This document shows positions 17,285 to 18,722 of a DNA stretch of 32,967 nucleotides, piece by piece. The notes below the pieces were generated by a model. That model saw only the letters and a list, made by a program, of their open reading frames with translations. It did no database searches and was not told where the DNA came from. A program made the position numbers and the translations under genes. Position 1 is the first letter of the stretch; each line of letters begins with the position of its first letter. The stretch lies in NCBI RefSeq assembly GCF_028823615.1, contig NZ_JAPEHT010000026.1, forward strand, positions 1 through 32,967. The letters are read 5' to 3'. This stretch comes from Planococcus sp. A6. GTDB lineage: Bacteria; Bacillota; Bacilli; Bacillales_A; Planococcaceae.

Positions 17285-17953
17285 CTAGTCTTGCACAAGC
17301 GAGGCGTAGACAATCAAGCGTTCCTCTCTTGTTCCCCGGTCATAGTCATAAGTTCCAGAGCAAGTAATCAACACCAGCTCCGGGGATGAATGATAACCGA
17401 AGACCGAATCGACATCCGCCAGATCGAGCGGCACCGACTCCATCGTATGGACCTTGAACCGCAGCTCGCGATCGTCGCCGGCTACGACAATTTCATCTCC
17501 CGGCTCCAGCTCCGTCAAGTCCCAAAACACTGCCGGGCCGTCCAAATCATCGACATGTCCAGCTATGACCGCCCGCCCTCTTTGGCCGGGTTGGTAGCCC
17601 GGCGAAAACCAGCTTAGTTCTTCGCCGTTATCCGGCACCGCCATTTCCCCCGAGTCGGTCACGCCGAGATGCGTGACATCCGACGTCTCTGGCGCGATGC
17701 CTGGCTGGTTCAGTTCATTGATCGGGTTGGCCGCCTGCTTCGACTGGGCCGCAGGTTTTTCTTTTTCTACGGCCTTCGCCTTCTCTAGCTCTTTTGGTTG
17801 TTCTGTCCAAGCCGGTTCTGCCTTGACAGCATAGCCGACTTCCGCACTGCGAACACTCACTTCATCTTGCGGAGCAGCGGTACATCCTGCAAGAAATACT
17901 GCTGTGAGGAGCAATGCCAATTTATTGAAATCGTTTTCTCCACACAAGCCCAC
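17285..17953 (-). CDS. Class F-like sortase with a lipoprotein-type N-terminus
   Basis: A 222-residue sortase, a membrane-anchored cysteine transpeptidase that joins proteins with an LPxTG-like signal to the cell wall. Catalytic residues are H133 (VIAGHVDD), C198 (LITCSG) and R212 (EERLIVYA); the compact catalytic domain at 105-222 is like class F. The N-terminus (KLALLLTAVFLAGC, Cys24) reads as a lipobox rather than a plain anchor, followed by a charged Glu/Lys/Ala linker (about 45-75). The GTG start at 17953 lies 32 nt inside the end of the DUF4397 gene; a TTG at 17947 is an alternative, and neither has a strong ribosome binding site, so translational coupling is likely. The neighbouring protein, with its MPTTG sorting signal, is the obvious substrate. 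Confidence 0.85.
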   Translation of the reverse strand: MGLCGENDFNKLALLLTAVFLAGCTAAPQDEVSVRSAEVGYAVKAEPAWTEQPKELEKAKAVEKEKPAAQSKQAANPINELNQPGIAPETSDVTHLGVTDSGEMAVPDNGEELSWFSPGYQPGQRGRAVIAGHVDDLDGPAVFWDLTELEPGDEIVVAGDDRELRFKVHTMESVPLDLADVDSVFGYHSSPELVLITCSGTYDYDRGTREERLIVYASLVQD

Positions 17954-18722
17954 TAGCTGCCACTAAGAATAACGCGCCACCGATCAACAACCACATGGAC
18001 TGGGATTGTTCTGGTGTACCAAGACCAGTTGTCGGCATTTCGTCTGGTGAAGCAGCCGCTTCGTAATCGACAAGCGCGATCACTTCAAGCGAATCGACTG
18101 TGTTCACTGCAAACACTGAGTAGACTGTATCTGCGGCAAGTTCAGTTCCTTCAAGCGGCAATACTTGCGTGCCATCCGGCAAGCGGATTTCCAAGTCATA
18201 TGTGCCAGGGTCTACTTCGGCATAATCCGTGATGGATGGGAACTCAGCTCCACTGAACAAAGCATCTCCACCGATGATCCCAACATCAACTGCTGGAGCA
18301 TCCGGTGACAAATGGCCGACACGGATTTTCGCTTGGCCTTCAGTGACTTCCATGGAATCTTCAGCTACTACAAATTCGATGGATTCCAAGAGGTTGGCGG
18401 CAGCTACTGTATAAGCTTTTCCAGCTTCCACTTCCAAGTCAGCCTGCAAAACGCCTTCTCCTGCTGCATATTCAGTACCTGCAGCGAATACTTCTACATC
18501 ATGCGTACCAGCCGGGACTTCCAAATATCCGGAATCCGTTTTGAATGGTACTTCTTCGAGTGTTAAATCACCGTTGACGTAAACATCTACTGCAGGGGCA
18601 TCAGGCGAAGCGTGCAACACCCGTACTTTTGCCATGTCACCATGGTTGTCAGCCATGACCAGAGATGCGAGAAGCGAAAACAACACCAGCATTGCGACGA
18701 GAGAGACAGATAACTTCTTCAT
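17922..18722 (-). CDS. DUF4397 surface protein with C-terminal sorting signal
   Basis: A 266-residue exported protein. A signal peptide covers about 1-24 (cleavage near VMA-DN). Two tandem DUF4397 units begin with nearly the same motif: VRVLHASPDAPAVDVYVNGD (33-52) and IRVGHLSPDAPAVDVGIIGG (133-152). The C-terminus is a sorting signal: MPTTG (229-233), a short linker, a hydrophobic segment (243-260) and the basic tail WRKRFQ. MPTTG departs from LPxTG at the first position. The ATG at 18722 has AAGAGG upstream. DUF4397 domains have a beta-sandwich-like repeat and no known activity; an adhesive or structural role is only a guess. It is co-transcribed with the overlapping sortase gene. Confidence 0.9.
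   Translation of the reverse strand: MKKLSVSLVAMLVLFSLLASLVMADNHGDMAKVRVLHASPDAPAVDVYVNGDLTLEEVPFKTDSGYLEVPAGTHDVEVFAAGTEYAAGEGVLQADLEVEAGKAYTVAAANLLESIEFVVAEDSMEVTEGQAKIRVGHLSPDAPAVDVGIIGGDALFSGAEFPSITDYAEVDPGTYDLEIRLPDGTQVLPLEGTELAADTVYSVFAVNTVDSLEVIALVDYEAAASPDEMPTTGLGTPEQSQSMWLLIGGALFLVAASGLVWRKRFQ

Follow-up and report, generated by a model that had tools for sequence, protein, structure and literature searches.

A DUF4397 surface-protein gene and its overlapping class-F-like sortase gene in Planococcus, with a candidate +1 frameshift site at the junction

The stretch of DNA analysed here (the window) comprises 32,967 nucleotides of Planococcus sp. A6 (family Planococcaceae; NCBI RefSeq assembly GCF_028823615.1, contig NZ_JAPEHT010000026.1) and is part of a draft genome of 265 contigs. 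Its minus strand carries a gene for a DUF4397 surface protein, the 3′ end of which is overlapped by an open reading frame for a sortase (Table 1). The DUF4397 protein runs from a signal peptide through two DUF4397 units to MPTTG(LG), a hydrophobic helix and the residues WRKRFQ, followed by the stop codon. An earlier note on this DNA had described the same ending and had called the two units tandem duplicates, and both descriptions hold: the ending is read in the translation of the gene, and PF14344 matches twice, the two units being 40% identical over 90 aligned columns (E 8e-16).

Table 1. Features of the DUF4397-sortase locus, in window coordinates.
Feature	Position	Strand	Remark
DUF4397 surface-protein gene	17922..18722	-	ATG at 18722; 266 aa
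DUF4397 unit 1	18282..18632	-	132 bits (PF14344)
DUF4397 unit 2	18039..18332	-	69.4 bits (PF14344)
Sorting motif MPTTG	18024-18038	-	read in translation
Junction CGA-TTT-CAA-TAA	17922..17933	-	candidate +1 slip site TTTC at 17927-17930
Sortase ORF	17285-17953	-	counted from first GTG; +1 frame relative to DUF4397 gene
Start candidates of the sortase	GTG 17951-17953, TTG 17945-17947	-	the only ones ahead of the hydrophobic core
Lipobox LAGC	17882..17893	-	Cys codon 17882-17884
Sortase domain (PF04203)	17294..17656	-	
Sortase triad codons	His 17555-17557, Cys 17360-17362, Arg 17318-17320	-	
Nine-residue gap of the window sortase	17681..17686	-	relatives hold a segment around x-I-P-x-I

The two-unit DUF4397 region was predicted with a mean pLDDT of 80.7. 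The model (region 17925-18644) resembles the extracellular domain of the mammalian peptide transporters PepT1 and PepT2 (5a9i; E 2.3e-08, TM 0.57/0.69) and, more weakly, AlgF domains (E 3.3e-03 and 6.9e-03), at only 11–19% sequence identity in these matches. Since the PepT and AlgF domains are described, in the parts of the sources consulted, as protein-binding beta-sandwich modules (PMC10641220; PMC4597091), the DUF4397 protein is putatively, and with low confidence, a wall-displayed protein-binding adaptor.

The second frame belongs to the sortase superfamily: PF04203 matches at 1.1e-19 (70.8 bits, the cut-off being 26.6), and the His-Cys-Arg triad (H118, C183 and R197 of the first row) is invariant across 21 aligned sequences, the window copy included. 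The best class model is that of class F (NF033748, 115.6 bits, with the next class at 35.2), and the enzyme is termed class-F-like only, as the curated cut-off of 166 bits is not reached. Its predicted fold (mean pLDDT 77.5) matches solved sortases to a moderate degree (best E 7.2e-08, TM 0.46/0.49).

The pairing of the two genes is real. DUF4397 exceeds its cut-off in 31 of 200 genomes of the family, and a close sortase (E < 1e-60) occurs in the identical 31; three other family genomes have DUF4397 matches only below threshold, in long proteins. At the level of the order DUF4397 exceeds the cut-off in 48 of 261 genomes, and at all 48 junctions, each of which was read, the sortase gene overlaps the 3′ end of the DUF4397 gene in the +1 frame (the sortase row of G219 is truncated where the locus ends). 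Adjacency and co-occurrence thus back the partnership that the earlier note had proposed. Counts over 48 genomes given below include genome G215, and counts over 47 (third-base changes, codon use, dN/dS and Shine-Dalgarno energies) leave it out.

In a search of the class the cut-off is exceeded in 92 of 398 genomes, not all of whose loci were fetched. Among 80 loci of other Bacilli outside the window's order sample (L158-L237), both frames are present in 46, of which 45 are in +1 overlap and one (L202) is the sole frame-0 pair, with no overlap; an in-frame DUF4397-sortase fusion was found in none of the 80. In 24 named pairs outside the family the sortase lies in frame 0 in 12, in +2 in seven and in +1 in five, and at one locus (L257) the sortase model finds no sortase. 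The constancy of the +1 frame was dropped as independent evidence because the overlap is probably inherited, and outside the family all three frames occur.

Ahead of the sortase domain all 48 genomes have a hydrophobic segment that ends in xGC; position -3 is occupied by L, F, V or M. The lipobox is LAGC in 30, as in the window, and fits the strict pattern [LVI][AST]GC in 38. We recognise the sortase here as a predicted lipoprotein, a feature which the earlier note had overlooked together with the weak or absent start codon and the loss of nine residues from the window copy. Other class-F-like sortases within the family also have lipobox-type ends, and one paralogue group has the hydrophobic segment without a lipobox. 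A second class-F-like sortase of the family (L116-L119, L135) carries a C-terminal extension past the domain and has no lipobox.

The substrate side of the pair is equally constant, with MP[TSAV]TGL in all 48 genomes (MPTTGL in 42, MPSTGL in three, MPATGL in two and MPVTGL in one), and MPxTG proteins adjoin many other class-F-like sortases of Bacilli, so the Met in the first motif position, earlier taken to be unusual, is the rule in this group. The partners of those sortases are either a DUF4397 protein or a protein of about 450 residues unrelated to it, for which two examples scanned gave no Pfam match; this larger partner looks internally duplicated in L135:599-1939 and L124. LPXTG-type profiles stay below cut-off on the DUF4397 tail (PF00746 14.1 of 20 bits, TIGR01167 14.7 of 15.9), although motif, helix and charged tail are all there, with Met in place of Leu. 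One genus of other Bacilli (L160-L163, L165, L166, L168-L170, L172-L177, L233-L235) has AP[ED]TG[QE]G tails beside sortases without a lipobox, and ACG at the position where its strain L175 has ATG.

Whether the sortase serves a single substrate, as the earlier note predicted, is doubtful in this genome. A plain scan of its DNA for MPTTG was uninformative (52 matches, with loci given for 30, vs 103 in a reversed control), whereas a model of the MPxTG tail picked up, besides the window protein (E 1.5e-21), two further proteins, ending in MPSTGFGG (E 4.3e-12) and MPSTGMGG (E 3.4e-10). These are encoded on contigs C88 (L319, 444 aa) and C112 (L320, 455 aa), and the sortase model finds no sortase beside either gene in the surrounding 8 kb and 4 kb. 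Four sortases were found in the genome, the window enzyme as the one assembled class-F-like sortase and three class D-type enzymes, all of them adjoining one LPxTAS protein each; the third of these (L003, contig C144, 1477-2078) is split over two frames, as a pseudogene or through an assembly fault. The window sortase may serve all three MPxTG proteins, or another sortase may be missing from the assembly, given that contig C112 ends by its MPSTG gene.

The gap of nine residues in the window sortase, near 17683, spans a nearly invariant Ile-Pro and occurs in this genome only among the 48; the enzyme may be impaired here, or the draft sequence may be wrong. We regard it as rather unlikely that the window gene is in decay and the pair functionless in this strain. 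Besides the unique loss around x-I-P-x-I, the two MPSTG proteins without a sortase in the stretches fetched would fit such decay, but the remaining frame is intact and retains the triad, comparison with two near relatives gives dN/dS of 0.081 and 0.093, the predicted model still matches sortases (at a moderate TM of about 0.46), and the gap may itself be a draft-assembly fault. Our conclusions on the system rest on the relatives and not on the window copy.

To locate possible starts of the sortase, ATG, GTG and TTG codons were counted in its frame from the upstream in-frame stop to the lipobox Cys, those at least 14 residues before the Cys being called far. No genome of the 48 has a far ATG, 33 have a far TTG or GTG, and 15, spread over several separate lineages of the tree, have none of the three and are here termed startless (named examples, recognised by sequence, are L244, L253-L255, L258, L260, L261 and L265). 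A single canonical start common to all 48 was rejected, as no one position is available in every genome. The startless sortases are nonetheless under strong purifying selection, with dN/dS of 0.050–0.134 between pairs of startless genomes (six of nine pairs usable; two were saturated and one had a dS of 5) vs 0.049–0.094 between pairs with a candidate start (seven of eight).

In the window, estimated Shine-Dalgarno energies are -1.5 kcal/mol for the GTG and -1.8 for the TTG, vs -8.0 for the ATG of the substrate gene. Across genomes the mean is -9.1 kcal/mol for the substrate gene, a value flattered by taking the best-scoring candidate, -4.8 for the best far start of the sortase in each of 32 genomes, while positions taken at random average -2.6 (sd 2.2). 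Far starts in the window's clade range from 0.6 to -5.0, with little Shine-Dalgarno pairing in most members. Counted from the window TTG, the residues ahead of the core are MCGENDFNKL, with a net charge of -1, and the n-region has a charge of -1 in the four members of this clade that were examined. A start of the window sortase at the GTG (17953) is not established, because there is no appreciable Shine-Dalgarno sequence and neither candidate codon is conserved; the overlap of 32 nucleotides given in the earlier note is correct if counted from that GTG.

Ordinary translational coupling would start the sortase from a weak TTG or GTG located within the 3′ end of the DUF4397 gene, aided by ribosomes that translate this gene or terminate on it, while lineages lacking such a codon found other starts; this is a real possibility, though we lean against it. 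It is consistent with the far codons of the 33 genomes, and several other clades have GGAG upstream of the TTG or GTG (about -5.6 kcal/mol) followed by a positive n-region, so that normal initiation may well operate there. Elsewhere in the Bacilli, pairs in this +1 overlap likewise have ATG (L167, L187 and L215-L229 among others) or TTG/GTG (L159 and the genus of L160). Coupling sits less easily with the window's clade, where the Shine-Dalgarno sequence is mostly weak or lacking and the n-region acidic where examined, or with the 15 genomes that have no start outside the core, in several lineages and with undiminished selection.

These startless genomes could be accommodated by re-initiation just after the DUF4397 stop, with translation resuming within the core or on a non-canonical start codon such as AUU or CUG, and in 13 of the 15 an ATG, GTG or TTG does lie 4–13 residues ahead of the Cys, within the hydrophobic core. 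In four of them (G112, G079, G206 and G208), however, the only such codons are 4–7 residues from the Cys; G069 and G164 have none anywhere ahead of it, and starts inside the core would leave no charged n-region. Far near-cognate codons (CTG, ATT, ATC, ATA or ACG) occur in only three of the 15, one being an ATT 17 residues ahead of the Cys in G164, and are absent from the other 12. We consider re-initiation improbable.

Coupling leaves the frozen codon of the junction unexplained. NTT-CAR is present in all 48 genomes, which is a conserved site of the kind expected for programmed +1 frameshifting: TTT-CAR stands in 44 and GTT or ATT replaces TTT in four, CGN precedes it in 47, and the stop follows directly in 19 and one codon later in 29. 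On the protein tree of 47 genomes the junction Phe codon has undergone no third-base change, vs at least three in each of 32 other pyrimidine-ending two-fold columns (3–8 in the six other Phe columns); with purine-ending columns added, one Glu column is also at zero, making two of 53. Within the 15 startless genomes alone the figures are zero for the junction Phe vs 0–3 elsewhere, too few to stand alone. The third bases of the flanking codons, 231 and 233, change 10 and four times, and therefore the frozen Phe codon is not a general consequence of the overlap, nor are the +1-frame residues on either side frozen. The Arg codon before the Phe is CGA or CGG in 36 of 46 cases, vs 27 of 144 Arg codons counted within the body of the substrate gene and 149 of 355 in the sortase gene. 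No consensus RNA structure, and hence no stimulatory element of that kind, emerged from 16 aligned junctions, and a conserved downstream stem was rejected accordingly; the mean folding z, at -1.17 relative to simple shuffles, is weak. Slippage driven by the stop codon (NNN-TAA/TGA) was rejected as well, as the codon immediately ahead of the stop is variable and pairs poorly after a slip, pairing being judged by eye.

We tentatively propose, at a level of confidence just short of an even balance, that in Planococcus and its near relatives the sortase is mainly reached through a +1 frameshift at UUU-C. The locus would encode a wall-displayed DUF4397 protein and a class-F-like sortase, held by a lipid anchor, that cuts the MPxTG tail of this protein. 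Ribosomes would shift at CGN-NTT-C, one or two codons ahead of the DUF4397 stop, the slip from UUU to UUC placing them in the sortase frame; most would terminate and yield the substrate, and the few that shift would yield a substrate-sortase fusion. This fusion would form a membrane hairpin, with the sorting helix crossing from outside to inside, the Arg/Lys-rich loop remaining cytoplasmic and the lipobox helix returning from inside to outside, after which lipidation and a cut by signal peptidase II before the Cys would free the sortase as a lipoprotein. One message would thereby give a low enzyme-to-substrate ratio set by the slip. Such a topology would be sensible and would supply the positive segment that the startless sortases otherwise lack, and an enzyme produced next to its substrate would be well served by a low yield of shifting. 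Observed in the sequences are the pair of genes, the triad and the lipobox, the +1 frame, the lack of start codons despite purifying selection and the frozen junction, whereas the shift, the fusion, the release by signal peptidase II and the anchoring to the wall are inferred. That the sortase is made only in this manner, as a +1 extension of its own substrate that is freed from the hairpin by lipoprotein processing, is a stronger claim which we judge doubtful, though not far-fetched.

Several observations count against frameshifting. A second frame under selection that lacks an independent start is found in 15 of the 48 genomes, but the other 33 have candidate starts, and the GGAG sequences and positive n-regions of several clades suit ordinary initiation. 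In the window's clade the base that makes the TTG is unchanged in 12 genomes, yet so are 38% of the columns there. The second zero-change column and the frequency of CGA and CGG in the sortase gene weaken the case, as do the missing RNA structure and a CAA codon that is not evidently slow. The four genomes with GTT or ATT would require out-of-frame entry at UUC, or the use of their TTG. Outside the family, moreover, most pairs have usable starts: ATG is found in all 19 named pairs whose sortase is in frame 0 or +2 (just beyond the first 30 codons in L280 and L285) and in two of the five named +1 pairs, two more of which have only TTG or GTG ahead of the core, while the fifth (L279) has no ATG, GTG or TTG outside the core. 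An ordinary overlapping start may have been present in the ancestor and have weakened later.

If the frameshift proposal is right, recoding would here be put to a new use, the making of a fusion of substrate and enzyme, and the ratio of the two would be set in a new way, a single slip site governing how much wall-anchoring enzyme is made per anchored protein. If frameshifting fails, the group still offers predicted lipoprotein sortases with MPxTG tails. In the literature searched, which yielded mostly title-level matches, no account of a frameshift-made or lipoprotein MPxTG sortase was found.

Among known systems, class F sortases (NF033748; the Cutibacterium acnes enzyme) share with the window sortase the best-scoring class and the His-Cys-Arg triad. 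The C. acnes enzyme, however, uses LPXTG according to the part of PMC13257024 consulted (a further source on the class, likewise seen in part, is PMC13251363), whereas the window sortase would recognise MPxTGL, scores below the cut-off of its class, is a predicted lipoprotein and is encoded by a gene that overlaps that of its own substrate. The class D loci of the same genome resemble the window pair in placing a sortase gene beside a gene for a protein with a sorting tail, and differ in their LPxTAS tails, in scoring best with class D models and in the ATG starts of their two intact copies. The DUF4397 model shares a tandem beta-sandwich with the PepT1/PepT2 extracellular domain and AlgF; unlike PepT1 and PepT2, the DUF4397 protein is bacterial and predicted to be anchored to the wall.

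In bacterial chromosomes, +1 frameshifting is best known from release factor 2, whose gene, prfB, is an example of programmed +1 frameshifting to which the candidate junction can be likened. The part of PMC3711429 consulted names the release factor 2 GeneTack cluster, and the word "sortase" is absent from the text of that paper. Influenza PA-X provides a +1 shift at UCC UUU CGU (PMC8310308), with no evident stimulatory RNA structure and a very low level of shifting (PMC5009743), as far as the parts of these sources consulted describe it. At L279 (Salipaludibacillus daqingensis, outside the family), the +1 pair mentioned above as startless outside the core, TTT-CGC lies in the short open stretch, a resemblance to the PA-X site that is a single case judged by eye. 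The proposed junction has in common with prfB and PA-X the +1 direction, a UUU-C site (UCC-UUU-CGU in PA-X) and the sufficiency of a low yield. It differs in having a sense codon, CAA, in the A site and no known stimulator, and in that its shift would fuse a substrate with the enzyme that processes it.
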